Notes under the pieces: generated by a model
Database searches by the model: none
What the model was told of the DNA's origin: nothing
What the model saw: the letters and a program-made list of their open reading frames with translations, nothing else
Shown here: one piece after another, positions 1 to 29,708 of the stretch
Layout: every line of letters starts with the position of its first letter
Numbering within the stretch: the stretch's first letter is position 1
Translations under genes and position numbers: made by a program
NCBI GenBank assembly: GCA_017454015.1
Contig: JAFTDW010000051.1
Coordinates: 1-44,959, forward strand
Source: Bacteroidales bacterium
Lineage (GTDB): Bacteria > Bacteroidota > Bacteroidia > Bacteroidales > P3
Direction: 5' to 3'
DNA: 44,959 nt

Positions 1-20
1 GGATGGACGCGCTCTCAATA
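1..20 (-). repeat. Dispersed TCC-loop hairpin repeat, partial copy at window edge
   Basis: Read on the minus strand this is TATTGAGAGC followed by GCGTCCATCC: the conserved TTGAGAG lead, the first arm of the hairpin and its TCC loop. The second arm would lie outside the window. The visible part matches the complete copy at 15530-15556. Confidence 0.6.
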
Positions 21-71
21 ATGCAGAAGTAACAAAAATAGTGCATGCCTCCAGTGTATAATAACACACGG

Positions 72-103
72 TATTCGAGAGCGCGTCTCTCCGAGACGCA
101 TTT
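72..103 (+). repeat. Dispersed TCC-loop hairpin repeat
   Basis: A TATTCGAGAGC lead is followed by a perfect 7-bp stem-loop, GCGTCTC-TCC-GAGACGC (83-99), then ATTT. Compared with the copy at 5504-5520, one stem pair has changed from C-G to T-A on both arms, so pairing is kept. This supports a selected or recently copied hairpin. Confidence 0.75.
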
Positions 104-117
104 GTCTATTGTCATGA

Positions 118-170
118 GACCCCACACTAACGTGCGGGGTTATTGAGAGTTTGCCCCTCCTGGGCAATTT
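118..170 (+). repeat. Mosaic intergenic repeat with two hairpins
   Basis: The left part is a hairpin with CCCC-A-CAC and GTG-C-GGGG arms around TAAC. Related CCCCGCAC/GTGTGGGG words occur at 15482-15510 and 19651-19660. The right part is TTATTGAGAG followed by a 6-bp stem TTGCCC/GGGCAA around a CTCCT loop, then TTT. It has the same lead and central TCC as the other copies, but a quite different stem sequence. Confidence 0.6.
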
Positions 171-208
171 CCCCAACAGCGTCTTTAGGTATAACATTTA
201 GTAATCAT

Positions 209-319
209 TTAAACAAATCTTCCGAGCGTATCCAGAACAAATACATGGTGTACACCAAAGACCTTCGCAGGGAACACGGCATGGACTACATCCCTGTCTA
301 TATGACTATGTTTCTTTGA
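209..319 (+). pseudogene. Possible 3' end of a truncated gene
   Basis: This frame reads as protein-like: it ends ...YTKDLRREHGMDYIPVYMTMFL and then TGA at 317-319, and it favours C-ending third positions like the genes around it. There is no plausible start. Further upstream the frame runs straight into the mosaic repeats, with a stop at 128-130. The simplest reading is that a gene lost its front when repeats were inserted or by deletion, leaving about 36 codons. It converges on tatD with a 30-bp gap. I do not recognise the family. Chance remains a real alternative for so short a segment. Confidence 0.35.
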
Positions 320-349
320 GACTTTTGAAGGCGTTGCCCGCCACGGTCG

Positions 350-1111
350 CTACACCCTGCAGAAAAGCGACAGGGCATTTTGCGTGGTGACCCTGTCCAC
401 GTCGGCCAGTGACAGGCCTTTTATTTCTGCCACGCGCTGCGCTATGAGTGGCAGGTAGGCGCTCTCGTTGCGCTTGCCGCGATACGGCATGGGGGCGAGG
501 TAGGGCGCATCGGTCTCAAGCACTATGCGCTCTATGGGCACCTGCTCCACTATCTGCGGCAGTGCCGACTTCTTAAAAGTCACCACACCGCCAATGCCCA
601 GGGAGAAGCCCCTCTCCAGTGCCATGGAGGCATGCCGCGGCGTGCCGCTGAAGCAGTGCAGCACCCCTCTCCACTCGTCGTAGCCCATGGTGTCAAGGAG
701 GTCGAAGAGGTCGTCGTAGGCGTCGCGCACATGCAGCGACACCGGCAGACAGCAGCGTCGCGCCATGAGCAGCTGGCAGCGCAACGCTTCGCGTTGCTGA
801 TCCTTGTAGGTGGTGTCCCAGTAGTAGTCGAGCCCTATCTCGCCAACTGCAACAAACTGCATGGTACCGCTGGCGAGCAGCCGTTCCACCTGCTGCAACT
901 CATCGCGGTAGTTGTCGCCCACCGAGGTAGGGTGCAGCCCCGCCATGTGGCGTATATGAGGCCCGCCGAGCGCATACTGGGCCTCGTTGGAGCTGCTGTC
1001 GATGGCGGGTTGCAGCATAAGCTCCACGCCTGCCGCGACAGCACGCTGCAGCACGGCCTCGCGGTCGTCGTCGAAAGCGGCATCATAGAGGTGGCAATGG
1101 GTGTCGATCAT
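350..1111 (-). CDS. tatD: TatD-family metal-dependent DNase
   Basis: A 253-residue protein with the full TatD set of metal ligands: HCH near the start (His5, His7), Glu91 in VGEIGLDYYW, His127 in SLHVRD, His152 in LHCFSG, and Asp201 in ETDAPYLAP. The family are cytosolic TIM-barrel metal-dependent hydrolases, with 3'-5' exonuclease activity shown for E. coli members. Length is normal. It is the last gene of a tight minus-strand set: its ATG overlaps the stop of the DUF2520 gene by 4 bp, which suggests translational coupling. The physiological substrate cannot be read from the sequence. Confidence 0.93.
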   Translation of the reverse strand: MIDTHCHLYDAAFDDDREAVLQRAVAAGVELMLQPAIDSSSNEAQYALGGPHIRHMAGLHPTSVGDNYRDELQQVERLLASGTMQFVAVGEIGLDYYWDTTYKDQQREALRCQLLMARRCCLPVSLHVRDAYDDLFDLLDTMGYDEWRGVLHCFSGTPRHASMALERGFSLGIGGVVTFKKSALPQIVEQVPIERIVLETDAPYLAPMPYRGKRNESAYLPLIAQRVAEIKGLSLADVDRVTTQNALSLFCRV

Positions 1112-1875
1112 GCGTCAGTATGTTGTCCTATTATGCTGCTGAACAGGGAGTAGAGTCTTTGCAGGTCGGGGTTTGAGGCGAGCAATTCAATATGTCGCTG
1201 CATTGTCGCCGCGTCGCCCCGCACGGCAGGGCCCGTCTGTCGCTGCCACAGGTTGCCGTGAAACCCCTGCGCGGTCTGGAGCGCCAGCGGCGCGAGGATA
1301 TCCATGGAGAGACCTTCGGCGGCAAGCCACTCCTGGGTGAGGGCATGCAAAGCGTTGCCGAAGTTATTGACGACAACAGCGGCGAGGTGCAGCCGCAGCC
1401 GCTGCTCCGACGTGACTTCCATCGACTTTGCTCCGAGCAACTCCGCCAGAGCGTGCAACCTCGCGAGGGTTGCGCCATCGCTTGCCTCGATGCATACGGG
1501 CACACCGGACAGCGTACAGGCCTGCCCCTTGCGCAAAGAGCAAACAGGCCACAGCACGCCATGACTGTCGGCTTTGTCTCCGAGTATGTCCATCGGCACC
1601 GAGCCAGCGGTGTGCAGCACCGTCCAGCTGTGCCGCGGCAGCTCGAGGGTTCCTATCACGTTGTCGGGCACTGCAAGCAGCACCGCATCGGCCAGTGGCC
1701 GCATTTGCGCCACATGGCGCACGGCGGCGGCCCCAACCTTTTGAGCCAAAACCGAGGCATGCTCATAGTGTGCCGAGCAGATGTCGACAATCTCACATCC
1801 CGCTTCATGTAGTGCTGTGGCCATCGCGGTAGCCATGTTGCCAGCACCTACCAGGGAGTATTTGTGAAAATACAT
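1108..1875 (-). CDS. Rossmann-like and DUF2520 domain protein
   Basis: The start is the ATG at 1873-1875, giving MYFHKYSLVGAGNMA. A longer in-frame reading up to 1974 would overlap the next gene and adds nothing family-like. The 255-residue product has an N-terminal dinucleotide-binding fold (GAGNMA at 10-15) resembling pyrroline-5-carboxylate or ketopantoate reductases. A helical C-terminal half follows, characteristic of the DUF2520 family. It is presumably a cytosolic NAD(P)-dependent oxidoreductase of unknown substrate. It lies 4 bp after the small acidic gene and overlaps tatD by 4 bp, so the three genes look co-transcribed. Confidence 0.85.
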   Translation of the reverse strand: MYFHKYSLVGAGNMATAMATALHEAGCEIVDICSAHYEHASVLAQKVGAAAVRHVAQMRPLADAVLLAVPDNVIGTLELPRHSWTVLHTAGSVPMDILGDKADSHGVLWPVCSLRKGQACTLSGVPVCIEASDGATLARLHALAELLGAKSMEVTSEQRLRLHLAAVVVNNFGNALHALTQEWLAAEGLSMDILAPLALQTAQGFHGNLWQRQTGPAVRGDAATMQRHIELLASNPDLQRLYSLFSSIIGQHTDA

Positions 1876-1879
1876 CAAA

Positions 1880-2101
1880 TTAATACTCGTCCTCTTGGAA
1901 GAAGAAGTCGTCCTTGGTGGGATAATCGGGCCAGAGGTCTTCAATGCTTTCGTAGGCATCGCCCTCGTCTTCAATCTCTCTGAGGTTCTCTATCACCTCC
2001 ATGGGGGCTCCTGTGCGCTGTGCGTAGTCGAGCAACTCTTCGCGGGTTGCGGGCCACGGTGCATCTTCGAGCTTAGAGGCTAATTCCAATGTCCAATACA
2101 T
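1880..2101 (-). CDS. Small acidic DUF2795-like protein
   Basis: A 73-residue, strongly acidic protein beginning MYWTLELASKLEDAPWPATREELLDYAQ and ending DDFFFQEDEY. The layout (an LxxLxDAPWPATREEL stretch, then an acidic tail rich in aromatic residues) is that of small Bacteroidetes proteins assigned to DUF2795. No catalytic motif is visible. It is the first gene of the DUF2795-DUF2520-tatD set. The function is unknown; a small adaptor or nucleic-acid-associated role would be a guess. Confidence 0.8.
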   Translation of the reverse strand: MYWTLELASKLEDAPWPATREELLDYAQRTGAPMEVIENLREIEDEGDAYESIEDLWPDYPTKDDFFFQEDEY

Positions 2102-2206
2102 ATATTAACTTACAGTTATGTTTTCTATGCTACAGGTCATGAGTCATTATAAACCGGCTCATGTATGATTTTAACGTTTCCTAAAAACTACAAACTACGT
2201 TTATTA

Positions 2207-2770
2207 TTATTCGGGATGCCAAAAAATTTCCTCTTTTTGTTCAACAAGCACAAGTCTCCGAGCCATAACGAACAGGAAATCAGAGAGCCTATTGATATAT
2301 TGCTGCATTGAGAAAATATCTTTTTTTTGTTCCTCGTCGCAAGAGGCGGAGAGTGCCACAATGTTGCGCTCGGCGCGGCGGCAGACGGTACGGCAGACAT
2401 GGCACTGCGCCGAGGCCACAGTGCCCCCGGGTATGACGAAAGCCTTCATTGGCGGCAGCTGCGAGGTGAGGAGATCAATCTGGTGCTCTATGTTCTCGAC
2501 GGCACCCGTGGCGAGCTGCGGCATTTGCTTCATCACTTGGAGGTCGGCGGTAGCCAAGCGGCTCTGCACCACAAATAGTTCGTTCTGAACACGCTGCAGG
2601 AACCGCACTTGCTCGGGCATGAGCGGGCGGCTCATCTCGATGAGCAGGGCTATGTGTGCGCCCAGTTCATCGACAGTGCCATAGGCTTCGACGCGTTGCG
2701 AGGCTTTGGAAACACGGGTGCCATCGGCGAGCGAGGTGGTACCGTCGTCGCCTTTCTTAGTGTATATCAT
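2207..2770 (-). CDS. PduO-type cob(I)alamin adenosyltransferase
   Basis: A 187-residue protein of the PduO/MMAB class, which transfers the adenosyl group of ATP to cob(I)alamin to make adenosylcobalamin. Visible signatures are the N-terminal YTKKGDDGTTSL ATP-binding segment, GTVDEL at 31-36, RRAER at 131-135 and NRLSDFLFVMAR at 160-171. These match the family's GT-DEL and NRLSD-LF--AR motifs. Its ATG overlaps the stop of the NifU-like gene by 4 bp. Its product is the cofactor needed by the class II ribonucleotide reductase at 16486-19296. The family assignment is secure; the link to NrdJ is inference. Confidence 0.93.
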   Translation of the reverse strand: MIYTKKGDDGTTSLADGTRVSKASQRVEAYGTVDELGAHIALLIEMSRPLMPEQVRFLQRVQNELFVVQSRLATADLQVMKQMPQLATGAVENIEHQIDLLTSQLPPMKAFVIPGGTVASAQCHVCRTVCRRAERNIVALSASCDEEQKKDIFSMQQYINRLSDFLFVMARRLVLVEQKEEIFWHPE

Positions 2771-3012
2771 ACTCTCTCGACAAATTTCACTTCGGGGATG
2801 GCGTTTTTCAGGGCGCGCTCAATACCTTCTTTGAGTGTCATCATTGCATGTGGACACGAGCCGCAATGACCTTTGAGGCGCACCATGACAACGCCTTCGT
2901 TGGTCATGTCGACATACTCCACATCGCCGCCGTCCTGCTGCAGGTAAGGGCGTATCTGACCAAGGGCGTTCTTGACTTTTTCGACAACAGTGTCGTAGGT
3001 TTCAGGTGTCAT
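2767..3012 (-). CDS. NifU C-terminal domain Fe-S scaffold protein
   Basis: An 81-residue stand-alone NifU C-terminal (NFU) domain: IRPYLQQDGGDVEYVD, then VRLKGHCGSCPHAMMTLKEGIE, with the cluster-binding CxxC at Cys50 and Cys53. Such proteins carry or deliver iron-sulfur clusters in the cytosol. It lies just downstream of the Mrp gene on the same strand, with 102 bp between. Mrp is another Fe-S carrier, so the neighbourhood fits cluster assembly or transfer. It is translationally coupled to the adenosyltransferase gene. Confidence 0.92.
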   Translation of the reverse strand: MTPETYDTVVEKVKNALGQIRPYLQQDGGDVEYVDMTNEGVVMVRLKGHCGSCPHAMMTLKEGIERALKNAIPEVKFVERV

Positions 3013-3114
3013 GACTTGTATTATTTTGGGTGACTTCTAAAATTTATTTTGAATACTAATATCACAAATTGATTTCGCGCATTGTACAGTTATGGGTACC
3101 CTTTATGGCTCCCA

Positions 3115-4194
3115 CTACTCTTGCCGGGCGGAAGCTCTGAGTTTGCATATCTCTTTTATGGTGTTCTCGGCCAGTTGCATGAAGGCCTCGCTCTCGGGTG
3201 TCGGGGTGTCGCTCCAGAGTGCCACGGGCTTGCCGCTGTCACCACTCTCGGCGATGCTCTGCACCAACGGTATCTCGCCGAGCAGGGGTATGTTCATCTC
3301 CTGTGCCAGCTGTGAACAGCCGCTTTTGCCAAATATGTAGTAGCGGTTGCCTGGCAGCTCGGCCGGGGTGAAGTAAGCCATGTTCTCGACAAAGCCCAGC
3401 ACCGGAATGTTGATGTTGGGGTTTTGGAACATTTCCACGCCGCGCACCACATCGGCCAAAGCCACTTTCTGAGGGGTGCTGACTATTATGGCACCGCTCA
3501 CCGGCAGGGTCTGGGCTATGGTGAGCTGTATATCGCCCGTTCCGGGGGGCATGTCGACCACCAGATAGTCTATCTCGCCCCACCATGTCTCAGTGAGCAT
3601 CTGCTTGAGGGCGCCGCTTGCCATGGGGCCGCGCCACACTATGGCTTTCTCCGGGTCGACAAGAAAACCTACGGACATGAGTTTGATGTTGTACTTGAGC
3701 ACTGGCAGCATATAGGTCTTGCCGTCGTGCTGCTCACCCATGATGTCCTGGTCGCCGATGTTGAACATGATAGGTATTGACGGGCCGTATATGTCGGCGT
3801 CGATGAGGCCCACCTTGGCACCTGTCTTGGCAAGCGATATGGCGAGGTTGACGGCCACGGTGCTCTTGCCCACGCCGCCTTTGCCACTGGCCACGAGGAT
3901 GGTGTGCTTGATGGTTGGGAAGAGCTCGCCGGGGCTGGGTTGCTCCACCTTCCGCGAGGTGAGGTTGACAGTCACCTCTGCGTTGCGGTCGACGTACTCA
4001 TGGATGGCGTCGACACAGTCTTGGCTCATGCGGTTTTTCATGGGGCAGGCCGGGGTGGTGAGCACCAGGTCGAACGACACTTTGAGGCCATCGACGGCAA
4101 TGTTCTCTATCATGCCCAGCTGGGTAAGGCTCTGTCCGAGGTCGGGGTCGTCTACATGGGACAATGCCATTTCAATCTGTGTTGTTGTTATCAT
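3115..4194 (-). CDS. mrp: Mrp/ApbC-type Fe-S cluster carrier ATPase
   Basis: A 359-residue P-loop ATPase. An N-terminal MIP18/DUF59 domain (about 1-90, with TTPACPMKN) is followed by the Mrp ATPase, with the deviant Walker A GKGGVGKS at 104-111 and IDADIYGPSIP. The segment that in E. coli ApbC carries CxxC reads ENMAYFTPAELPGNRYYIFGKSGC here, so the canonical CxxC is missing. As far as I recall, related Bacteroidetes proteins look similar. The role is transfer of Fe-S clusters to apoproteins. The start at 4194 gives a full DUF59 domain. Confidence 0.9.
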   Translation of the reverse strand: MITTTQIEMALSHVDDPDLGQSLTQLGMIENIAVDGLKVSFDLVLTTPACPMKNRMSQDCVDAIHEYVDRNAEVTVNLTSRKVEQPSPGELFPTIKHTILVASGKGGVGKSTVAVNLAISLAKTGAKVGLIDADIYGPSIPIMFNIGDQDIMGEQHDGKTYMLPVLKYNIKLMSVGFLVDPEKAIVWRGPMASGALKQMLTETWWGEIDYLVVDMPPGTGDIQLTIAQTLPVSGAIIVSTPQKVALADVVRGVEMFQNPNINIPVLGFVENMAYFTPAELPGNRYYIFGKSGCSQLAQEMNIPLLGEIPLVQSIAESGDSGKPVALWSDTPTPESEAFMQLAENTIKEICKLRASARQE

Positions 4195-4195
4195 T

Positions 4196-4312
4196 AGGTG
4201 TAAGGGAGGGTTTTATGGGTGGAAGGTTAAAAGGGGGTAAAGGGTTTTAAGGTTATAGGGTTATAAGGTTTTAAGGTTTAAGGGGGTAAGGGTGAAAGAC
4301 ATGGGGCTGCGG
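4196..4312 (+). repeat. G/T-rich degenerate tract of GGTTTTAAGGG type
   Basis: The gap between mrp and the thioredoxin gene consists almost entirely of imperfect GGTTTTAAGG, GGTTATAGGG and GGGGGTAA words on the plus strand. No gene or promoter is visible inside. Several GGG runs in the first 50 bases could in principle form a G-quadruplex with long loops. Similar tracts lie at 5435-5462, 7204-7262, 15288-15335, 19430-19535, 26970-27032, 28155-28305, 29630-29700 and 36645-36715. Confidence 0.7.
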
Positions 4313-4315
4313 GGG

Positions 4316-5434
4316 TTAGAATCCGAATAGTTCTTTCAGTTTGTCGGCGAGTTCCTCACCGCGGAGGTTTTTGGCTATTATGCGGCCTTTACGGTCGACG
4401 AGCACGGTGCTTGGCACAGACATGATGCCGTAGGTGGCGCCTCCCGAGGAGGTCCAGCCGCGCAGGTCGCTGACATGGTTGGGCCACACAAGGCCGTCGT
4501 CCTGAATGGCTTTGAGCCATGCGTTGCGGTCTTTGTCGAGCGACACGCTGTATATCTCGAAGCCTTTGTCGTGGTAGCGGTGGTAGAGTTTCACCACATT
4601 GGGGTTTTCCCTGCGACAGGGGCCGCACCACGAAGCCCAGAAGTCGATCATCACCACTTTTCCGCGCAGGTCGCTGAGTTTGCGTTGCTTGCCGTCGGGG
4701 TCTTTCATGTCTATCTCGGGTGCCAGAGTGCCGGGTTCGAGGCTTGTGCGCACCTTGTTGTCTATATATTTCACGAAGGGGCTGCCGGCGTAGTTTTTAA
4801 TGAGGGCGTCGCGCACCTCTTCGTAGAGGCTCACATAGGTGGCAAACTCCTGCTCGAAATAGGTTACCAAAAAGGCGCTCATCAGGCAGTCTTTGTTGGC
4901 AACGATGAGTTTCTGCACATCCTGTCGCTGCTTGAGTTGCAGAGCGTGCATCTCGCCGGCCAACTGGCGTTTGCGCTCATCGGAGGTGCCGGGCTGCGAG
5001 TATTCAGCGTCGATACGCTGCATGGCTTCGTAGGGTGCTGCTATGACCTCGTTGAACTGTTTGTAGAGCTCGGCGTTTTTCGAGCCTTTGGTGTTTTTGA
5101 TGTTCACAACATTGAGGCCGCTCTTGTATTCGAGGTCGAGTGTGATGTCTTTCTCCTTGGGCAGCACTATGAGGTGGACCACCGGACTCTGCTCAACGGT
5201 GAAGCTCAAGACATACATGGTGGGTTCGGCGGGCTGTACGCTGAAGGAGTAGCTGCCTTTGGTGTCGATGCGCACAGTGTCGCGAGGCTGGAGTTTGTTG
5301 CCGCTCACAACTTCGTTGACGCACAATGCCGCGGAAGGTTCGAAGCCTATTAGATGACCATGGACAACGGTCTGAGCTGCGGCGGTGGAGAGAGACGCGG
5401 CAGCGATAAGCAGTGCAAAAAATAATGTTCTCAA
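4316..5434 (-). CDS. TlpA/ResA-like periplasmic thioredoxin with N-terminal DUF4369-like domain
   Basis: A 372-residue exported protein. A signal peptide (MRTLFFALLIAAASLSTAAAQ) precedes a beta-rich DUF4369-like region (about 25-110) and a helical linker. The C-terminal thioredoxin fold (about 235-372) has the catalytic WCGPC at Cys270 and Cys273, and VPSTVLVDRKGRI supplies the cis-Pro loop. This layout is very common in Bacteroidetes and typically acts as a thiol-disulfide reductant in the cell envelope. The substrate is unknown. It is flanked by G/T tracts and a hairpin repeat, so it is probably transcribed alone. Confidence 0.9.
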   Translation of the reverse strand: MRTLFFALLIAAASLSTAAAQTVVHGHLIGFEPSAALCVNEVVSGNKLQPRDTVRIDTKGSYSFSVQPAEPTMYVLSFTVEQSPVVHLIVLPKEKDITLDLEYKSGLNVVNIKNTKGSKNAELYKQFNEVIAAPYEAMQRIDAEYSQPGTSDERKRQLAGEMHALQLKQRQDVQKLIVANKDCLMSAFLVTYFEQEFATYVSLYEEVRDALIKNYAGSPFVKYIDNKVRTSLEPGTLAPEIDMKDPDGKQRKLSDLRGKVVMIDFWASWCGPCRRENPNVVKLYHRYHDKGFEIYSVSLDKDRNAWLKAIQDDGLVWPNHVSDLRGWTSSGGATYGIMSVPSTVLVDRKGRIIAKNLRGEELADKLKELFGF

Positions 5435-5461
5435 GGGTATAAGGGGTTTTAGGGTTGAAAG

Positions 5462-5530
5462 GTTTGATTTATGACAGGTGGGGCCTATTTTTTCATTGAG
5501 AGCGCGTCCCTCCGGGACGCATTTTAGAGG
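5462..5530 (+). repeat. 44-bp repeat fused to a TCC-loop hairpin
   Basis: Positions 5462-5505 are identical to 19536-19579. They end in CATTGAGAGCGC, which leads into the perfect stem-loop GCGTCCC-TCC-GGGACGC (5504-5520) and ATTTTAGAGG. The TTTTAGAGGT tail is shared with the copy near 15340. Hairpin plus ATTTT looks like a weak intrinsic terminator on the plus strand, but both neighbouring genes run on the minus strand. Confidence 0.8.
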
Positions 5531-5570
5531 TCACTGACAGTTACTTTTTTTCGGATTGGTATGATTATTC

Positions 5571-7199
5571 TTACTGCGACAATTGGTTGTAGGACTTTGC
5601 ACCAGACAGGACTTGCTGCATGTCGTGGTCGTAGGGTAGTGTTATGCGGTAAAAGGTGTAGTTGTCGTATAGCGACTCGGCGATATAGGCTTTGATGTAT
5701 GCACGCATCTCATTGCCATAGGCAGCGATGCATTGCCGGTTGCGTGCGATGCCTTCGCTGTCGGCCATGCGCAACATGGCCTCGAAGAGTTTGTCGTCGA
5801 CGACAAATCCGCTGCAGAAGTCGCTGCCCGTAGGGTACTGCGTCAGGAGTTCCTTGGCATGGCGGCTCACGTAATCGAGGCTGAAGAGCGAAATCACCTG
5901 CTTGTTTATCAAACTGTTGTAATACGTTAGCAGGGAATCTTTTTGGTAGGCTATGTTGCGGTCTGGATATATGCCACCGCCGCCATATACTGTGCGGTGC
6001 TGTCGCAGGGTGTAGTAAGGGGTGCTGTCGGCAATATCAAGGCTGGGGCTGTTGCTCAGCACCTCGTCGGTCACACGGTCTATGAAGTCGCTGTAGTAGC
6101 TCTTGGTGCCGTTGGCATAGGGACGTTGTATGCAGCGACCCGAGGGTGTATAGTAGCGTGCTATGGTGAGGAACATGGCGGAGCCGTCCTTGAAGTAGCA
6201 CTGGCGCTGCACCAGTCCTTTGCCAAAGGAGCGGCGGCCCACTATCTCGCCACGGTCGTTGTCCTGTATGGCGCCTGCCACTATCTCACTGGCCGAGGCG
6301 GACCACTCGTCGATGACCACGGTGAGTGGGCCCTGGGTGAAGCGGCCGCCGCGTGTGGAGTGGACAGTCTGGCGACGCTGGTGCGCCCCTTGGGTATAGA
6401 CTATAGGCTCGCGCGAGTTGAGGAACTCGTCGACTATTGATGTGGCAGTTTCCAGGAGTCCACCGCTGTTGCTGCGGAGGTCGAATATCAGATGCTTCAT
6501 GCCCTGCTTGTTGAGGCTGTCGAGTGCCTGACACACCTCGTCGTAGGAGGTCTCGGTGAAACGTGCAAGCCTCATATAGCCTATGCCAGGCTTAAGGATG
6601 CCATAGTAAGAAAGGCTGGGAGTGGGTATCACGCCGCGCCGAATGGTCACGGTATGTGTAGAGGCGTCGGCAAGGCGGTACAGCGTCACGTCTACGCTTG
6701 AGCGTCGCGGGCCGCGCAGCATGGAGACGACATCCTCTATCTTGATTTTTGCGCCGGAGACAACGGCGGTGTCCACTTTGAGTATACGGTCGCCGGGCAG
6801 TATGTCGAGACTCGACGAGGGGCCTCCTTTTATCACCTGTCCCACGCAGACGGTGTCACCAAACTGGCGTAGCACCATACCCACCCCGTCGAAATTGCCG
6901 CGCATGTCCGACTCTTCGCGTTCGAAGTCGGCGACCGAGAGGTAGCTGCTGTGGGGGTCGAGGGTGCCGAGAATGGCACGCACAGCCTCTTCTTCGAGGC
7001 TGTCGCGCGGAATGTCGTCGACATATTCGCTCTCTATGAGTTCCAGAGCCTCGCGCACCTTGTCGGGCGCACGGCGCCCGCTGCGTGTGTTGGGGGCGAA
7101 GAGGATGCCTAAGAGAATGCCAAACACTATGAGCAACAGGGGTGGGATGCCGCGACCTCTGGCGTTTGTTTCAATATTGTCTTGGGTGAAGTCTGCCAA
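5571..7199 (-). CDS. S41 family C-terminal processing protease
   Basis: A 542-residue protein with one N-terminal membrane anchor (PPLLLIVFGILLGILFAP, about 19-36). A PDZ domain follows (about 95-185; GVGMVLRQFGDTV...GGPSSSLDILPGDRIL), then the S41 protease domain. By alignment with the E. coli Prc dyad, the catalytic serine is the middle one of SASASE (Ser302) and the general base is Lys327 in FGKGLVQ. The C-terminal 150 residues are a helical extension often seen in Bacteroidetes members. It acts in the periplasm on C-termini of envelope proteins. The substrate is not deducible. Transcribed alone or after the nadB region. Confidence 0.92.
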   Translation of the reverse strand: MADFTQDNIETNARGRGIPPLLLIVFGILLGILFAPNTRSGRRAPDKVREALELIESEYVDDIPRDSLEEEAVRAILGTLDPHSSYLSVADFEREESDMRGNFDGVGMVLRQFGDTVCVGQVIKGGPSSSLDILPGDRILKVDTAVVSGAKIKIEDVVSMLRGPRRSSVDVTLYRLADASTHTVTIRRGVIPTPSLSYYGILKPGIGYMRLARFTETSYDEVCQALDSLNKQGMKHLIFDLRSNSGGLLETATSIVDEFLNSREPIVYTQGAHQRRQTVHSTRGGRFTQGPLTVVIDEWSASASEIVAGAIQDNDRGEIVGRRSFGKGLVQRQCYFKDGSAMFLTIARYYTPSGRCIQRPYANGTKSYYSDFIDRVTDEVLSNSPSLDIADSTPYYTLRQHRTVYGGGGIYPDRNIAYQKDSLLTYYNSLINKQVISLFSLDYVSRHAKELLTQYPTGSDFCSGFVVDDKLFEAMLRMADSEGIARNRQCIAAYGNEMRAYIKAYIAESLYDNYTFYRITLPYDHDMQQVLSGAKSYNQLSQ

Positions 7200-7203
7200 T
7201 GTG

Positions 7204-7262
7204 GGGGGGAGGGGTTAAAGGTTATAGAGTTGAATGGTTTGGAGGTTTTAGTGGTAAGGGGG
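7204..7262 (+). repeat. G/T-rich degenerate tract
   Basis: A short copy of the GGTTTTAAGGG-like low-complexity family, between the S41 gene start and the nadB stop. Nothing else is visible in this gap. Confidence 0.5.
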
Positions 7263-7307
7263 GATGGATTTTAAGCCTTGAGTACCGGTGGAAGTCACTG
7301 AGTTCGA

Positions 7308-8879: not shown

Positions 8880-8883
8880 AATT

Positions 8884-8935
8884 TATTCGCTGTCCGTGTT
8901 TTTTAATTCATAGGTGCTTATGACCTCGGTTGATG
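8884..8935 (+). repeat. Mosaic intergenic repeat fragment
   Basis: It contains TTCGCTGTCCGTGTTTTTT, then TTCATAGGTGCTTATGACCTCGGTT. The same words, in the same order, occur at 19781-19822 and on the minus strand at 15400-15480. There is no hairpin in this copy. It sits between the response regulator stop and the nadB start, pointing against both. Confidence 0.65.
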
Positions 8936-8962
8936 AGTATTGCGGTTTTGTTTCTATCAACT

Positions 8963-9802: not shown

Positions 9803-9873
9803 ATTTTTGCTATAAATAAGTTTCAGATATTCAGGTTTTTTCGATTACTCGGACAAACAACTTGCAATTATCA

Positions 9874-11907: not shown

Positions 11908-11975
11908 ATATTCAACAGATATATAGTAATAACTACATACCTGCAACTTTATTGCACTACCATTATTTATATTAT

Positions 11976-12047
11976 TATAATGAATACTAAATTCTTTACC
12001 CAAATGTGTCGGAGACTCATGCTCTCAATAACCGAGGTCATGAGCAC
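11976..12047 (-). repeat. Hairpin repeat subtype shared with the giant-gene leader
   Basis: On the minus strand: GTGCTCATGACCTCGGTT, ATTGAGAGC, a hairpin ATGAGTC-TCC-GACACAT (one mismatch), then ATTTGGGTAAAGAA and TTTAGTATTCATTATAAT. It matches 19805-19878 over about 72 bp with only a few differences. It ends about 70 bp before the kinase start, in the kinase's orientation. Confidence 0.8.
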
Positions 12048-12066
12048 AGTGCTCATGACCTCGGTT
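12030..12066. repeat. Perfect 18-bp inverted repeat with 1-nt spacer
   Basis: GTGCTCATGACCTCGGTT occurs on both strands head to head, separated by the single A at 12048. It marks the junction of two mosaic repeats pointing away from each other, one towards the kinase and one towards the peptidase gene. Such a near-perfect palindrome would extrude or fold readily. Confidence 0.85.
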
Positions 12067-12121
12067 GCTCACTGTCCTTGTTTTTATTTCTATTTGTGTT
12101 CGCAGCCTTCGGTTATTCGCT
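12049..12121 (+). repeat. Mosaic intergenic repeat, plus-strand half
   Basis: From GTTGCTCACTGTCCTTG through TTCGCAGCCTTCGG to ATTCGCT this copy matches 19727-19783 with only a few differences. Its 3' end supplies the upstream part of the likely promoter of the S46 peptidase gene. Confidence 0.75.
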
Positions 12122-12139
12122 AAAAAAAGCGTAACTTTG
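12108..12139 (+). promoter_or_regulatory. Bacteroidetes-type promoter for the S46 peptidase gene
   Basis: The -7 element TAACTTTG (12132-12139) fits TAnnTTTG. TTCG (12108-12111), 20 bp upstream, is one base from the TTTG -33 element. This puts transcription start about 12-14 bp before the ATG. The -33 part lies in repeat DNA. Confidence 0.55.
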
Positions 12140-12156
12140 CATAAAAAGTTTTTACT

Positions 12157-14283: not shown

Positions 14284-14299
14284 AACCTGCCGCGCTGTA

Positions 14300-15289
14300 A
14301 TGTCCCATCGTCACCAAAAGAACGCCATTCTGCGGGTTCTGCCGCTGATAGGGCTCCTGCTGCTGCTCGCAGCGGTGGCTCTGGGCTGTTCCATGGTGGG
14401 CATAGTACACATAGGATGGCACGACATGTCGACCTCCCCTATCTTCCTCAACATGAGGTTGCCGCGTGTCGTGGTGTCTATGCTGGTAGGAGCCGCCCTG
14501 TCGGTATGCGGAGCCACCTACCAGGCGGTCTTCCGCAACCCCCTCACCGACCCCTACGTGCTGGGCATCTCATCGGGAGCCTCGCTGGGCGCCGCACTGG
14601 CCATACTCATGGGCCTCGGCGCATGGCTGTGGGGCATAGGAGCCTGCGCACTGGCCGCTGCAATGCTCACCATACTCTTCATCTACCGCATAGCATCCAT
14701 GGGCAACCGCATGCACACCACCACGCTCCTCCTCACCGGAGTCTGCGTGACATTCCTTTCATCGGCACTCATCTCGCTCATCATGGTACTGCATAACGAC
14801 AAGATGGACAGCATCATATTCTGGACCATGGGGAGCCTCGCCAGCGCGTCGTGGCTCGACGTTGCTCTGCTGGCTCCCATAGTGCTGGCCGGGCTGGCAG
14901 TGGTAATATACCACTCTCGCGACCTCAACCTGCTGCTTACAGGCAGCGAGACAGCCCAGAGCCTCGGCGTGGAGGTCGAGAAAGTGCGCCGACGCCTCCT
15001 GCTCTTCACCACCCTGATGGTGGCCTTCGCTGTAAGCTGCTGCGGAGTGATAGGCTTTGTGGGGCTTGTGGTGCCACACGCCGTGCGCCTTGTGGTGGGA
15101 AGCGACAACCGGCGCGTCATACCCTACTCTATAGTCTGCGGGGCTTTGCTGCTGCTGCTATGCGACACAGCGGCACGCATCCTGCTACAACCCAACGAGC
15201 TGCCTGTGGGCAGCGTTACCGCCATGATAGGCGCACCAATGTTCATATACCTACTCTACAAAAACAAGAAAGGCTTCGGTGAAATATAG
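14300..15289 (+). CDS. FecCD/BtuC-type ABC transporter permease
   Basis: A 329-residue, very hydrophobic protein with about nine to ten membrane helices and the family signatures LPRVVVSMLVGAALSVCGATYQAVFRNPLTDPYVLGISSGA near the N-terminus and GFVGLVVPHAVRLVVG near residue 255. Such permeases import cobalamin, ferric siderophores or haem across the inner membrane. The ATPase gene lies 364 bp downstream across a repeat cluster. No substrate-binding protein gene is present. Adenosylcobalamin-related genes in the window make B12 a reasonable substrate, but iron chelates are equally possible from sequence alone. Confidence 0.9.
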   Translation: MSHRHQKNAILRVLPLIGLLLLLAAVALGCSMVGIVHIGWHDMSTSPIFLNMRLPRVVVSMLVGAALSVCGATYQAVFRNPLTDPYVLGISSGASLGAALAILMGLGAWLWGIGACALAAAMLTILFIYRIASMGNRMHTTTLLLTGVCVTFLSSALISLIMVLHNDKMDSIIFWTMGSLASASWLDVALLAPIVLAGLAVVIYHSRDLNLLLTGSETAQSLGVEVEKVRRRLLLFTTLMVAFAVSCCGVIGFVGLVVPHAVRLVVGSDNRRVIPYSIVCGALLLLLCDTAARILLQPNELPVGSVTAMIGAPMFIYLLYKNKKGFGEI

Positions 15290-15335
15290 GAAGGTTAGAA
15301 GGTTTAAAGGTTTTAGGGTTATAAAGATATAAGGT
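15288..15335 (+). repeat. G/T-rich degenerate tract
   Basis: GGAAGGTTAGAAGGTTTAAAGG-like words immediately follow the permease stop. This is the same low-complexity family as at 4196-4312. Confidence 0.5.
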
Positions 15336-15580
15336 AACCTCTAAAAACAGCCTCGGAGAGGCTAACTTTCAATTGCTTAGGCCATGTACTGAGGTCATGA
15401 ACTGAGGTCATGAGCACCTGTAAAAATAAAAACATGGACAGCGAATAGCACCTATGAAATAAAAACATGGATAGCGAATCCCCCCGCACAAGCGTAGCGC
15501 AGTGTGGGGCAACAAGATAAAAACGACATGCGTCCAGGATGGACGCGCTCTCAATGAAAAAATAGAACCCACCTAAAGAC
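15336..15580 (-). repeat. Mosaic repeat cluster with two TCC-loop hairpins
   Basis: Read on the minus strand, it begins near 15580 with CTATTTTTTCATTGAGAGC. Hairpin GCGTCCA-TCC-TGGACGC (15530-15546) follows, then a CCCCACAC...GTGCGGGG segment, ATTCGCTATCCATG, CATAGGTGC and GTGCTCATGACCTCAG. It ends in a second hairpin, AGCCTC-TCC-GAGGCT (15349-15363), followed by GTTTTTAGAGGTT. The second hairpin plus T-run resembles an intrinsic terminator, but on the strand opposite to the transporter genes. It separates permease and ATPase genes that are normally adjacent. I see no coding sequence in this 364-bp gap. Confidence 0.8.
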
Positions 15581-15653
15581 AAATTAATAGAACTTACCAT
15601 AAGTGATACGTGCAATAAATGGAGACTAATTCATAAAGGACATTTAAGGTTTC

Positions 15654-16418
15654 ATGATAAGGCTTGACAATCTGCATAAAAGCTACGGCTCACGCAAGGT
15701 ACTCAACGGTGTGAGTGCGACCATTGCCGAAGGCGAGTTCTGCGCCGTCATGGGGGCCAACGGATGTGGCAAGACCACCCTCCTGCGTTGCATCGCCAAC
15801 CTGCTCCCGCCCGACAGCGGCACTGTGCTCCTCCGTGACGAACCCGCGGCCTCCTACGGTGTGCGACGCATGGCCCAGACCGTCGCTTTTGTGAGGCAGC
15901 ACGCGCAGACCGATTTCGAGTTCTCGGCTTTCGAGACGGTCCTCATGGGGCGCAACCCATACCAACGGCGGCTGCAAAACGAGTCGCAGCGCGATTGGGA
16001 CATAGTGGAGCAGGCCATGCGGCTCACCAACACATGGCACCTGCGGTTCTCCAAGCCTTCCCAGCTGAGCGGCGGCGAGCTGCAGCGTGTAATGCTGGCT
16101 CGCGCCCTGGCGCAGCAGACTCCTCTCATGCTCCTCGACGAACCTATCAGCAACCTCGACATCAAGCACCAGTTCGAGATACTCAACCTGCTGCAGCATA
16201 TCAACGAAGAGCAGCACACCACCATACTGCTTGTGATTCACGACCTCGACATGGCATTGCAGTACTGTCCTCAGCTGCTCCTGCTCCACGAAGGCAAAAC
16301 CCTCTTCCACGGCCCCACTGCCGAAGGCCTCACTCCATCTTTGATAAATAAAGTGTTCGGTGTCAACGCCACCCTCATAGGCGGCCACCTCCATCTCGAA
16401 TGCAGCGACATGGAATAG
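15654..16418 (+). CDS. FecE/BtuD-type ABC transporter ATPase
   Basis: A 254-residue ATP-binding subunit with Walker A GANGCGKTT (34-42), the Q-loop region VRQHAQTDFEFSAFETVLMGRNPY typical of the iron/B12 importer group, signature LSGGELQRV (about 138-146), Walker B LMLLDEP (about 159-165) and a switch histidine in LLVIHDLD. It couples ATP hydrolysis to import through the permease at 14300-15289. The start ATG at 15654 is preceded by AT-rich DNA immediately after the repeat cluster. It may need its own promoter if the repeats stop read-through. Confidence 0.92.
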   Translation: MIRLDNLHKSYGSRKVLNGVSATIAEGEFCAVMGANGCGKTTLLRCIANLLPPDSGTVLLRDEPAASYGVRRMAQTVAFVRQHAQTDFEFSAFETVLMGRNPYQRRLQNESQRDWDIVEQAMRLTNTWHLRFSKPSQLSGGELQRVMLARALAQQTPLMLLDEPISNLDIKHQFEILNLLQHINEEQHTTILLVIHDLDMALQYCPQLLLLHEGKTLFHGPTAEGLTPSLINKVFGVNATLIGGHLHLECSDME

Positions 16419-16485
16419 GCCTCGCTCCAATCTGGTTTTTCAGGTACAGCCTCAAAAAGCCATCCAACCCTTAAACCTTATTGCG

Positions 16486-19296
16486 TCAGCTGCACTTGGA
16501 CCAGCCGCAGTTGGTGCAGTGCTTGCAGCCGCTGTTGTAGACCACCGTCTTCTGGCCGCAGTCGGGGCAGAGCTCGTCGCTGACAGTGCCGTCTTGAACG
16601 TAGCGGCGGAGTGCGCGGGCGACGCCGTTCTTCCAGGTGGTGATGCTGTCTACATCGAAAGTGAGCTTGCTGATAAGGTCCACCACGTTGGGTATAGGCA
16701 TACCGTGGCGCAGCACACCGGAGATAAGCTTGGCGTAGTTCCAATATTCGGGCTTGAACATACGCGAGAGTCCTTCCAGCGTCACCTTGTAGCCGTCGCG
16801 GTCGAGGAACTGGAAGTCATAGCGTGCGTGTTCGTCGCCGGCCTCCTTGGTGCGCACCACCCATCCGCGCTCCACCCATTTGGGAAGCAGGAAGCTGTCT
16901 GCCTTGCCGGTGAATATCTCATAGGGCCGGTTCTCGTACATGCCGACGACGGCTATCCAGTCCTCCTTCTCGTTGCGGAAACGCACTATCTCGGCCTCAA
17001 GGCGTTTGGGACGCTTGGGCGCTCGGTGCTCGGTGAAGTCGTCGTCGCTGCCCTTCTTGGCCTCGCTGTTGGAGACGAGGACACCCTGACGCGACCCTTC
17101 GCGGTAGATGGTACAGCCCTTGCAGCCGCTCTCCCACGCCGTCTGGTAGATGGTGCTCACCACCTCCTTGCTGGTCTCCTTGGGTATGTTGACGGTGACG
17201 CTGATGGAGTGGTCCACCCATTTCTGGATGGCGCCTTGCATCTTGACCTTGTTGACCCAGTCTATGTCCTGCGACGTGGCCAGATGGTAGGGCGACAGTT
17301 CTATGACCTTGGCGAGGTCGGCGTCTTTCATGCCCATGACCTCCTCGTCGTCGTAGCCGTTGGCACGTAGCCAGTCGATGAAGCGGGGATGGAACACGTT
17401 GTACTCCTCAAAGTAGTCGCCGTTCTCGTCCTTTATTATTTTATGCGACGAAGAGTCTTTGTCGTTGGGATTGATTTTCTTGCGGCGCTTGTAGCTCACG
17501 AGGAACACGGGCTCTATGCCGCTTGTGGTGCGGGTGCAGATGCTGACGGTTCCGGTGGGCGCTATGGTGAGCAGCGCTATATTGCGGCGGCCGTTGGACA
17601 CCATGTCGCCGTAGAGGTCGGGATCGGCCTCCTTGATACGTTGAATGAAGGGGTTCTCTTTCTCGCGGTCGGCGTCGTAGAGAGGGAATGCCCCGCGCTC
17701 CTTGGCCATCTGCACGCTGGAGCCGTAGGCGGAGAGTGCGAGGGTGCGCTGCACCTCCACGGCCATGTCTATGGCCTCCGGGGTGCCGTAGCGCAACCCG
17801 AGGGCTGCCAGCATGTCGCCCTCGGCGGTGATGCCGAAGCCGGTGCGGCGGCCTTCCATGCACTTCATCTTGATGTTGAGCCAGAGGTTATGCTCCACCG
17901 ACTTGATCTCATCGCTCTCGGGGTCGGCCTCTATCTTTGCCAGTATGCGGTCCACCTTCTCCATCTCGAGGTCGACGAGGTCGTCCATGAGGCGTTGTCC
18001 CTTGGCGACATGTTCTTTGAAGAGGCCAAAGTTGAAGTGCGCCTTGTCGGTAAACGGTGCTTCGACATAGCTGAAGAGGTTGATGGCTATGAGGCGGCAC
18101 GAGTCGTAGGGGCAGAGGGGTATCTCGCCGCAGGGGTTGGTGCTGACGGTGCGGTAGCCGTAGTCGGCATAGCAGTCCGGTATGCTCTCACGAAGTATGG
18201 TGTCCCAAAACAGCACGCCGGGCTCCGCCGACGACCATGCGTTGGCTATTATCTTGTTCCACAGGGCACGGGCATCTATCTCCTTGACCACCATAGGGTT
18301 GTCACTGTCTATGGGGTACTGCTGCCGGAAAGGCTTGCCCTCAACGACACAGCGCATGAACTCGTCGGTTATCTTCACCGAGACGTTGGCTCCGGTTATC
18401 TTCCCCTGCTCAAGCTTGGCGTCTATGAACTTCTCGGCATCGGGGTGTTTTATGCTGATGCTGAGCATAAGTGCGCCGCGGCGACCTCCCTGCGCCACCT
18501 CGCGTGTGGTGTTGCTGTAGCGCTCCATGAAGGGCACTATGCCGGTTGACGACATGGCGCAGTTCTTCACGGGGCTGCCGCCAGGCCGTATGTGCGACAG
18601 GTCGTGACCCACGCCACCGCGCCGTTTCATGAGCTGCACCTGTTCCTGGTCTATCTTCATTATGCCGCCATAGCTGTCGCTGCTGCCGCTGTTGCCTATG
18701 ACGAAGCAGTTGGAGAGCGACACCACCTGCAGGTCGTTGCCTATGCCGCTCATGGGGCTGCCCTGCGGCACTATGTAACGGAAGTCCTTGAGCAGCTGGT
18801 ACACCTCGTCCTCGCTCATGCCGTTGGGGTACTTGGCCTCGATGCGGGCAAACTCGCGGGCAAGGCGGCGGTGCATCATGTCGGGGTTGAGCTCGTAGAT
18901 GCGCCCTTCGTCGCGCAGGGCGTACTTGTTCATCCACACGTTGGCTGCCAACTCGTCGCCGTGGAAATATTCCACCGACGACTTCATAATCTCGTCGGTC
19001 GTGTACTCGGTGTAATGGTGCTGCTCCATTGTCTTGGGGGTTGATGTGTCACTTGCGGCTGCTGCCGCGGGTTTCTCTTTTGCCGACGCCCCACCCGCGG
19101 AAGAGGTCCGAACATGTGTGGGTACCGCAGCTCCGCGCGGAGCGCGGAGCCCACTCCCTTCATGGGTGTCGACGTTGTGGTGTGCGCCACTCCTATCCGG
19201 CTCTTGCGTCATTGAAGCCGACGGAGCCGGCTTGGACGTCTCGCCATTCGACGTGAAGTCCAGTTCCAAAAAAAGGTTACCCTGTTTAGCAGCCAT
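16486..19296 (-). CDS. nrdJ: Adenosylcobalamin-dependent (class II) ribonucleotide reductase
   Basis: A 936-residue NrdJ that reduces ribonucleotides to deoxyribonucleotides using adenosylcobalamin as radical source. Family marks are MKRRGGVGHDLSHIRPGGSPV, PGVLFWDTILRESIPDCYADYG, the active-site STNPCGEIPL with Cys389, and a C-terminal zinc-ribbon-like CPDCGQ...CKHCTNCGWSKCS that carries the redox cysteines. The N-terminus is unusual: between LFLELDFTSNGETS and the family-like EYTTDEIM (about residue 97) lies a low-complexity Ala/Ser/Pro/Gly stretch. That stretch contains a perfect hairpin at the DNA level (19130-19150). Transcription probably starts from 19340-19371. It needs the adenosyltransferase at 2207-2770 for cofactor. 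Confidence 0.95.
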   Translation of the reverse strand: MAAKQGNLFLELDFTSNGETSKPAPSASMTQEPDRSGAHHNVDTHEGSGLRAPRGAAVPTHVRTSSAGGASAKEKPAAAAASDTSTPKTMEQHHYTEYTTDEIMKSSVEYFHGDELAANVWMNKYALRDEGRIYELNPDMMHRRLAREFARIEAKYPNGMSEDEVYQLLKDFRYIVPQGSPMSGIGNDLQVVSLSNCFVIGNSGSSDSYGGIMKIDQEQVQLMKRRGGVGHDLSHIRPGGSPVKNCAMSSTGIVPFMERYSNTTREVAQGGRRGALMLSISIKHPDAEKFIDAKLEQGKITGANVSVKITDEFMRCVVEGKPFRQQYPIDSDNPMVVKEIDARALWNKIIANAWSSAEPGVLFWDTILRESIPDCYADYGYRTVSTNPCGEIPLCPYDSCRLIAINLFSYVEAPFTDKAHFNFGLFKEHVAKGQRLMDDLVDLEMEKVDRILAKIEADPESDEIKSVEHNLWLNIKMKCMEGRRTGFGITAEGDMLAALGLRYGTPEAIDMAVEVQRTLALSAYGSSVQMAKERGAFPLYDADREKENPFIQRIKEADPDLYGDMVSNGRRNIALLTIAPTGTVSICTRTTSGIEPVFLVSYKRRKKINPNDKDSSSHKIIKDENGDYFEEYNVFHPRFIDWLRANGYDDEEVMGMKDADLAKVIELSPYHLATSQDIDWVNKVKMQGAIQKWVDHSISVTVNIPKETSKEVVSTIYQTAWESGCKGCTIYREGSRQGVLVSNSEAKKGSDDDFTEHRAPKRPKRLEAEIVRFRNEKEDWIAVVGMYENRPYEIFTGKADSFLLPKWVERGWVVRTKEAGDEHARYDFQFLDRDGYKVTLEGLSRMFKPEYWNYAKLISGVLRHGMPIPNVVDLISKLTFDVDSITTWKNGVARALRRYVQDGTVSDELCPDCGQKTVVYNSGCKHCTNCGWSKCS
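19130..19150 (-). repeat. TCC-loop hairpin inside the nrdJ coding sequence
   Basis: On the nrdJ coding strand, arm GCTCCGCGC is followed by loop TCC and the exact complementary arm GCGCGGAGC. This 9-bp perfect stem has the same three-base loop as the intergenic hairpin family. It encodes part of the low-complexity N-terminal extension (LRAPRGA). The flanks do not clearly match the intergenic copies, so membership in the same family is not proven. Confidence 0.6.
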
Positions 19297-19339
19297 AATA
19301 TTTCTTCAATACACTAATACAGTTTATTGCGTATAAAAA

Positions 19340-19371
19340 CAGATGTACAGTTTGAATTGCTAAATTACAAA
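19340..19371 (-). promoter_or_regulatory. Promoter for nrdJ
   Basis: On the minus strand, TTTG (19368-19371) is followed by a 20-bp spacer and TACATCTG (19340-19347). The latter is one mismatch from TAnnTTTG. The predicted transcript starts about 35-40 bp before the ATG. That leaves no room for a cobalamin riboswitch downstream of this promoter. Confidence 0.55.
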
Positions 19372-19429
19372 TAAAAACAGGGTTGCCGGATATTTGCCAC
19401 GAGGTTTTATAAACAAAGTATTTAACAGA

Positions 19430-19535
19430 CCCTTAAAAGGTTTGAAAGTTATAGGGTTTCAGCGATTTACGGTTGGAAGATTTTATGGGTTAAGGGCTAT
19501 AGGGTGGAAGGTTTTAAGGGTTGAAGGTTTGGGGT
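19430..19535 (+). repeat. G/T-rich degenerate tract
   Basis: Runs of AAAGGTTTGAAAGTTATAGGG and GGTTTTAAGGGTTGAAGG-like words fill this part of the 633-bp gap between nrdJ and the giant gene. No coding signal is visible. Confidence 0.55.
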
Positions 19536-19804
19536 GTTTGATTTATGACAGGTGGGGCCTATTTTTTCATTGAGAGCGCCTGTTCTCCGCTGCGCTATCG
19601 AAATGCCACTGGCATTTCTTCACCCCGATACGCATGTCGTTTTTATCTTGTTGCCCCACACTGCGTTATTCGCTGTCCATATTTTTGATTTCATCTGTGC
19701 TCATGACCAATGGTTCCTTGTGCGGGGTTGCTCACTGTCCTTGTTTTGTTTCTATTTGTGTTCGCAGCCTTCGGCAATTCGCTATCCGTGTTTTTATTTC
19801 ATAG
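19536..19804 (+). repeat. Mosaic repeat cluster upstream of the giant gene
   Basis: 19536-19579 is identical to 5462-5505, but the hairpin after it has decayed. Then come words shared with 15480-15530 (TTGCCCCACACTGCG, ATTCGCTGTCC), the block 19727-19783 matching 12064-12121, and ATTCGCTATCCGTG plus TTTTATTTCATAG, also found near 8884 and 15460. No gene is visible. Confidence 0.75.
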
Positions 19805-19878
19805 GTGCTCATGACCTCAGTTATTGAGAGCATGTGTCTCCGACACATTTGGGTAAAGAATGTTAGTATTCATATAAT
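19805..19878 (+). repeat. Hairpin repeat subtype upstream of the giant gene
   Basis: GTGCTCATGACCTCAGTT, ATTGAGAGC, a perfect stem-loop ATGTGTC-TCC-GACACAT (19832-19848), then ATTTGGGTAAAGAAT and TTAGTATTCATATAAT. It is nearly the same as 11976-12047. It ends about 50 bp before the giant gene's ATG in the same orientation. A TATTTTTG (19902-19909) downstream could be the -7 promoter element, but I see no good -33 partner. Confidence 0.8.
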
Positions 19879-26969: not shown

Positions 26970-27032
26970 TGAAAGGTTAAAAGGCTGAAAGGCTAGTCCT
27001 TTAAACCCTATAACTTTTAAACCTTCCATTTC
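26970..27032. repeat. G/T-rich tract with inverted A/C-rich partner
   Basis: AAGGTTAAAAGG and GGCTGAAAGG are followed by CCTTTAAACCCTATAACTTTTAAACCTT, so the tract can fold back on itself imperfectly. It lies between the convergent giant gene and queD and may serve as a weak two-way terminator. Confidence 0.5.
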
Positions 27033-28154: not shown

Positions 28155-28305
28155 ATTAAGGTTGGAAGGGTTTTAGGGTTCTAAGGGTTCAAGGTTTCAA
28201 GGTTCTAAGGTTCTAAAGGTTTAGGGGGTTGGGGGTTAGAATATTAACTTTAAACCTTTAAACTTTTCAACCTTTTAACCTTTTAACTTTTTAACTTTTA
28301 GTATA
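28155..28305. repeat. G/T-rich tract facing an A/C-rich tract
   Basis: About 80 bp of GGTTCTAAGGG-like words are followed by about 60 bp of the complementary type (TTTAAACCTTTAAACTTTTC...CCTTTTAAC). The two halves can pair imperfectly over a long distance. This 172-bp gap between clpX and the nitroreductase-like gene holds no coding sequence that I can see. Confidence 0.6.
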
Positions 28306-29618: not shown

Positions 29619-29629
29619 TGTAAGGTTAT

Positions 29630-29700: not shown

Positions 29701-29708
29701 ACTTTTTA

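Follow-up and report, generated by a model that had tools for sequence, protein, structure and literature searches.

What are the short hairpins scattered through the window, the whole 44,959-nt contig of an uncultured gut Bacteroidales bacterium analysed here (C33; JAFTDW010000051.1, assembly GCA_017454015.1), and which enzyme, if any, reads them? An earlier sequence-only reading had reported at least eight dispersed sites with a TCC loop and stems that differ and still pair, and had named a RAYT or IS200/IS605-type HUH transposase, or a transcribed regulatory element, as candidates. The genome comprises 2.31 Mb in 63 contigs and is 93.9% complete; it was compared with a genus set of 59 genomes, itself included, and with a set of 59 genomes from other families of the same order. 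With a probability of about 0.65, we take the sites to be hairpins resembling repetitive extragenic palindromic (REP) sequences and recognised by a lineage of IS200-like Y1 (HUH) transposases found in this Bacteroidales genus, their tag being GAGAG and not GTAG.

The dispersed hairpins share a lead, TTGAGAG, followed by a 7-bp stem and a loop that is usually TCC. The lead ATTGAGAG was observed seven times in the window (1.09 expected), a number reached in 0 of 100 shuffles. Five of these seven sites carried an intact or one-mismatch hairpin, one was truncated where the contig begins and another contained a 42-bp insert, while two more hairpins had the leads TTCGAGAG and ATTGAAAG. The observation is confirmed: the model described below found seven complete sites, to which one cut and one interrupted copy are added, and none lies past 19851. 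The stems named for 83-99, 5504-5520, 15530-15546, 19832-19848 and 15348-15364 were recovered; the one at 151-167 has a C.T mismatch adjoining the TCC on the + strand, its fold being a stem of 6 bp and a loop of 5 nt.

For the wider search, a model (R1, threshold E<=0.01) was built from an alignment (A1) of 36 hairpin rows, 17 from the own genome and 19 congeneric, some of them hairpins beside the cognate TnpA genes. These rows were retained from 45 hairpins gathered by tag and pairing, omitting three with the loop TAC (L054 twice, L075) and six near-copies (two from the own genome, four from relatives). R1 matched at least 67 sites in the own genome (118-120 of 702 candidates scored) and had sites in 40 of the 59 genus-set genomes, compared with none in the 59 genomes of other families. 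The hairpins form a dispersed family. A test on the lead, with pairing not required, covered the window and 28 own-genome BLAST loci and gave 34 distinct ATTGAGAG contexts. Of these, 21 formed 6 or more of the 7 stem pairs with the offset held fixed, 10 had the 42-bp insert and 3 had neither; among the last three are one variant of that insert and one hairpin in a shifted position. With three other 8-mers, six contexts and no hairpins were obtained.

Within the 36 rows, 96.4% of the cells of the 7-bp stem were paired, compared with 29-47% when slid, a percentage biased upward by the preselection of rows for the GAGAG tag and at least 6 of 7 pairs; the tag itself, one of the criteria for choosing these rows, was invariant. 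Two-sided changes were observed at all 7 stem pairs, and the covariation score was 0.778, compared with 0.235 in shuffles. The count of further pair types (12) was no higher than chance, with 306 of 500 shuffles reaching 12. Outside the genomes, the window interval 70-170 had no match in plasmids or phages, one 19-base pattern had none in viral contigs, and an exact 22-base B-hairpin pattern was found in 0 stretches of a genome-contig scan whose set may lack records close to this genome.

The hairpins mostly occur in sets, with hairpins A, M and B in succession in one orientation, such that the tagged A and B bracket M. Hairpin A has the consensus GCGTCYC-TCC-GRGACGC, M is CCCCRCAC..GTGYGGGG, and B is of the TTAGCCTC, TTGCCCC or ATGTGTC type. 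M was recognised by its repeated sequence and its presence in folds. The lead spacing was 68-94 (68-88 in the own genome) in 31 units whose two tagged hairpins lie 58-95 nt from each other; solo hairpins exist too, as in L224 and at window 5504. Because the hairpins come in A, M and B sets, much of the apparent stem compensation is difference between hairpin types and not stepwise change. The proposal of covarying stems is upheld in its conserved pairing and two-sided changes, and is weakened to the extent that part of the variation lies between types.

The link to a transposase comes from congeneric genomes. Matches to PF01797 (Y1_Tnp) were found in 40 of the 59 genus-set genomes, with 1 to 7 per genome where present, and 60 Y1 neighbourhoods, part of the matches listed, were taken (an ORF, or open reading frame, in 59 and none in L101). 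The layout in these relatives is B-M-A / tnpA / A-M-B, with the units inverted on the two sides, and an M like that at window 120-139 is also present in the TnpA-flanking units. At least two perfect copies of GAGAG plus hairpin were observed within about 500 nt of 6 of the 59 genus Y1 genes. Five of the six group in a single clade (support 100/98) and the sixth, L078, falls outside it; L092 and L096 had one marginal match each. Other TnpA lineages of the genus, among the matches listed, carry different flanking hairpin families. Five genomes had a cognate-clade gene among the fetched loci, and their hairpin counts were 7, 22, 43, 70 and 70; the other 54 genomes had a median of 2 (p=0.0007), an association favoured by the partial training of R1 beside cognate TnpA genes.

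When the TnpA alignment was used to scan named genomes, 185 relatives were obtained, and analysis was carried out on the best 80, a set that overlaps the 59-gene genus set and is thus not an independent test. In one clade (100/96), each of the 16 rows had at least one GAGAG hairpin, compared with 3 of the 64 others. In 57 of the 80 loci, a perfect hairpin with a stem of 6 bp or more started no more than 20 nt from the stop codon of tnpA, compared with 19 of 307 control windows. The titles of these 80 loci were nearly all uncultured Bacteroidales, Bacteroidetes or Bacteroidia, and the named sources were herbivores; the set includes Candidatus Colimorpha merdihippi. L123 and L126, titled Clostridia and Prevotella, fall in the same tnpA clade as Bacteroidales records and represent either mislabelled bins or transfer.

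The motif Y-x3-Q-x2-HH was present in 58 of the 59 genus Y1 proteins. One member scored 69.4 bits on PF01797; the enzyme scored 51.4 bits on the NCBIfam IS200 model (cut-off 55) and 25.3 bits on REP_Tyr_transpos (cut-off 80), and its PDB sequence matches include the ISHp608 transposase. The available part of PMC6006769 gives this motif for TnpA subclass 1.2 and describes the subclass as generally without typical terminal IS200 structures. Like that subclass, the genes here have the motif, 1 to 7 Y1 matches per genome and an occurrence in Bacteroidota; unlike it, as far as the available text goes, many of them have flanking hairpin arrays. Judged by its motif, the enzyme is a putative IS200-like Y1 (HUH) transposase of subclass 1.2 and not a canonical RAYT. 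The suggestion of a RAYT or IS200/IS605 HUH enzyme was therefore sound in that a congeneric Y1/HUH gene is flanked by the same GAGAG hairpins, and it missed in the enzyme class, which is not that of a canonical RAYT.

In the own genome the hairpins lie in islands whose ends are terminal inverted repeats, GGTRACCTCTA / GGTGGGTTCTA. One terminal repeat had 41 matches there (at most two mismatches), compared with 2 for the reversed pattern. Identical 4-bp flanks were observed in 11 of the 16 own-genome islands with both ends readable by a fixed rule, where shuffled partners gave a mean of 2.15 and a maximum of 7 in 2000 shuffles, the 4-bp length having already been noted visually in part of this island set when the test was made. 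Flank lengths of 2, 3, 5 and 6 showed no excess over shuffles in these 16 islands. Among relatives, the 4-bp flanks matched in all 6 readable islands of two genomes, under a rule that accepted either of two end positions and read 6 of 20 stretches. With its outer terminal repeat taken as the end, the window island at 15333-15598 is flanked by ATAA left and right. HUH transposition is not known to make flank duplications; in the own genome, where no Y1 gene was found, the copies lie in islands that have 4-bp duplications, and in these respects the HUH proposal is not supported in the form first given. At the L005 island an 8-bp direct repeat, TTATTTGA, stands on both sides in place of 4 bp. Seven contigs of the own genome, G000 (C23, C28, C32, C36, C42, C51, C55), have ends inside or near islands, and these contig breaks are probably due to the repeats.

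Many copies are also nested, with a 42-bp hairpin unit in hairpin A and 46-50-bp units in the M loop and in one another. The triplet preceding 91 unit starts was GTT in 52, GCA in 15, GCT in 10, TTT and ATT in 6 each, and another in 2. The 46-50-bp units are repeatedly nested at the same TT site (window 19668-19822; L003, L010, L011, L012, L230), in the manner of a minisatellite that follows a rule of target choice. The 42-bp unit, TTCTCCGCTKCGCTATCGAAA..TTTCTTCA (window 19583-19622; L033-L049), has a stem that varies yet pairs and is spread across the genus, with tandem copies in G028; it also occurs within short coding-like ORFs, and the frames that hold it in L033, L035 and L037, short ORFs as well, are putatively dnaK-like. 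In L224, L225 and L026 the A hairpins lie within a long outer palindrome, ATTATCCGCA...TGCGGATAAT, which is another end type.

Several observations weigh against the favoured explanation. The chief difficulty is twofold: the terminal repeats seen around the islands are missing from the A-M-B units next to tnpA, and no tnpA is detectable here. No Y1 gene was found in the 93.9% complete own genome by PF01797 or by profile A2 at E<=10. The hairpin-rich G011 (50), G030 (52) and G025 (34) had no GAGAG-clade TnpA among the fetched loci, and G025 has one Y1 match outside them. The expectation of a TnpA gene in copy-rich genomes agrees with the counts in the cognate-clade genomes and not with the own genome or with the fetched loci of these three. 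G027 (26 hairpins) had no GAGAG-clade TnpA among the fetched loci, yet it is probably the same as L127, which carries one, so a Pfam search can miss the gene. A perfect-stem test for M did no better than chance (10 of 31 units, compared with 197 of 620 shuffled spacers), because M often holds an A.C mismatch. No autonomous insertion sequence bearing the ends of the islands was found, the terminal-repeat pairs in the loci examined enclosing no gene, and a PF01609 search of the own genome returned one fragment only, at a contig end. The eye-picked flank length and the training of R1, given above with their numbers, count on the same side.

One locus bears directly on the absence of tnpA. In L121-L124, tnpA and inverted A-M-B units lie behind an Eco57I-type methylase gene (PF07669), and the last bases of that gene recur past the insertion in L122-L124 and, decayed, in L121. 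The same arrangement was seen in L262, and in these five loci it adjoins a T5orf172/ResIII gene. The own genome has the methylase gene, at 63% identity, adjoining the same T5orf172-type gene, and the interval between the two holds a single copy of the methylase end and no tnpA (best tblastn E 0.8). Because the site is uninterrupted here, a gap in the assembly does not explain why tnpA is missing from this locus; the gene was either never there or lost by recombination between the repeated ends, and a tnpA could still lie elsewhere in the missing part of the genome. Since no TnpA gene was found in the own genome, its hairpins have the look of a population that was orphaned or inherited.

The islands have the terminal inverted repeats and 4-bp target-site duplication of miniature inverted-repeat transposable elements (MITEs), and one alternative is that the family is simply that: the subterminal hairpins would serve a DDE-type transposase or protect mRNA, and the TnpA genes would have received hairpins by chance insertion or co-option, with no TnpA action. 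The duplications here, in the two relatives and at the window island, together with the 41 terminal-repeat matches compared with 2 reversed, speak for this explanation. It fits poorly with the hairpins on the tnpA side, which often abut the stop codon, are inverted on the two sides, are without terminal repeats and mostly track the tnpA tree, and with the different hairpin families of the other tnpA lineages among the matches listed; its partner transposase was not found in the PF01609 search or the loci examined. We regard it as unlikely, at about one chance in four by our judgement of this evidence. The transcribed regulatory or terminator element, with hairpins acting in RNA, is not favoured and appears improbable. 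A B hairpin of the form TAGCCTC-TCC-GAGGCTA followed by TTTTTAG, with its G+C-rich stem and T run, does resemble an intrinsic terminator, and complete window copies sit between ORFs of at least 100 aa, except that 12001-12033 extends 3 bases into an ORF with a TTG start. Set against this, wobble pairs in A and B stems showed no strand preference (8 vs 7), M pairs better in folds on the strand bearing GGA loops, and the flank duplications point to mobility. The hairpins had no Rfam match, and a known structured RNA was rejected, only a tRNA in the window matching at the gathering score.

Canonical REP/RAYT, with GTAG-tagged REPs and a TnpAREP-class enzyme, shares with the present family the dispersed tagged hairpins and, in relatives, the Y1 gene with inverted flanking hairpins. 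The tag GAGAG, the score on the REP model far below its cut-off and the class-1 Y-x3-Q motif make it very nearly untenable, and it was rejected with tag and enzyme class both failing. The hairpins are REP-like and the islands MITE-like; they resemble REPs of an IS200-like TnpA but depart from canonical REP/RAYT in tag and enzyme class.

Measured against the REP or bacterial interspersed mosaic element (BIME) and RAYT systems (REPtrons, TnpAREP class 2), the likeness lies in a short tagged hairpin of high copy number, the window copies being between ORFs, in a cognate gene flanked by inverted copies in congeneric genomes, and in a hairpin type that mostly tracks the transposase clade. The differences are the tag, GAGAG and not GT[AG]G, the same-facing arrangement of paired hairpins around a third, the subclass 1.2 motif, the lack of any transposase gene found in the genome, and the islands with 4-bp duplications. 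The IS200/IS605 derivatives moved by TnpA are small elements with two same-facing hairpins at their ends, as here; IS200/IS605 insertion leaves, to our knowledge, no target duplication, whereas the islands have one of 4 bp. Compared with CGTC-tagged REPs (RPE), the CGTC here lies in the paired stem of hairpin A and not in an unpaired tag. Porphyromonas gingivalis is a member of the Bacteroidales. Its BrickBuilt MITE, in the available text of PMC4596501, is likewise intergenic with inverted-repeat ends and inner repeat units, but these are 23-nt tandem repeats, and here 42- and 46-50-bp units are nested as well as tandem and accompany A, M and B hairpins. The TIRtrons (TIRYT), as far as the available part of PMC3733652 describes them, have a tyrosine transposase gene between long inverted repeats, possibly with a family elsewhere in the genome; here the repeats are composite A-M-B hairpins, and dispersed copies add terminal repeats and 4-bp duplications. 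No description of GAGAG-tagged hairpins was found in the available text of the open-access literature; the string GAGAG does not occur in the available part of PMC3733652, and RAYT and TnpA are not mentioned in that of PMC12306157.

Under recognition by the IS200-like lineage, TnpA would bind the hairpin and its GAGAG tag on single-stranded DNA, and this recognition would select for pairing, with stems changing in step with the enzyme. A second, duplication-making transposase may act in trans on the terminal repeats, dispersing whole islands. The fuller two-enzyme system, in which an IS200-like TnpA of subclass 1.2, reported to have no REP partners, keeps the hairpins paired, the duplication-making transposase spreads the islands and the loops are landing platforms for the 42- and 46-bp units at recurring TT sites, is tentative, and we put its chance somewhat below even. 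A subclass 1.2 clade with its own tagged hairpins offers a substrate that can be tested, and it suggests that IS200-type enzymes, too, gave rise to REP-like systems. Islands around HUH-type hairpins would show a stacking of small mobile elements, and hairpin populations outliving their transposase gene.

Within the window, the copies are placed as follows. At the contig start (1-19, - strand) an A-type hairpin, recognised in the sequence, is truncated, with its lead at 12-19. On the + strand, hairpin A at 70-102 (sequence and model) has the lead TTCGAGAG at 74-81, the stem GCGTCTC/GAGACGC at 83-99 and the loop TCC. It is followed by hairpin M at 120-139, CCCCACAC-TAAC-GTGCGGGG, which was seen in the fold and has one A.C mismatch on the + strand, and by a B/C-type hairpin at 138-170 (model and fold) with its lead at 142-149 and the one-mismatch stem TTGCCCC/TGGGCAA at 151-167. 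Folded as DNA, the interval 70-170 gave z values of -3.9 (+) and -5.3 (-). A short island at 5477-5535 (+) comprises a terminal repeat (5477-5487), a lead (5495-5502), the solo hairpin GCGTCCC/GGGACGC (5504-5520) and a B-type terminal repeat (5521-5535). A solitary unit of the 46-bp type, ATTCGCTGTCC...CTCGGTT, lies at 8885-8931 (+). A D-type hairpin found by the model at 12001-12033 (-) has its stem and loop at 12003-12019, with one mismatched pair, and its lead at 12022-12029; beside it are a palindrome at 12032-12064 and a unit from 12067.

The complete island on the - strand spans 15333-15598 between terminal inverted repeats, or 15329-15602 with its ATAA flanks at 15329-15332 and 15599-15602. 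It contains hairpin B at 15348-15364 (TAGCCTC-TCC-GAGGCTG; sequence and model), hairpin M at 15482-15509 and hairpin A at 15530-15546 (GCGTCCA-TCC-TGGACGC; sequence and model) with the lead at 15548-15555. The last island, at 19551-19866 (+), runs from an A-end repeat (19551-19561) to a D end (19852-19866). Its A part has the lead at 19569-19576 and the 42-bp unit at 19583-19622 inside hairpin A; M, at 19654-19727, holds a unit of the 46-bp type in its loop from 19668, more units begin at 19730 and 19777, and a lead at 19823-19830 precedes hairpin D at 19832-19848 (ATGTGTC/GACACAT).

The window also contains mutually similar, degenerate T/G-rich intergenic repeats resembling TTTAAGGGTTTTAGGGTT, at 4205-4298, 7203-7264, 15286-15335 and 19450-19510, with further ones at 26972-27025, 28156-28285, 29594-29708 and 36650-36708. 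An ORF of 2344 aa at 19930-26964 has many internal repeats, of about 40-800 bases, within 22339-26055.
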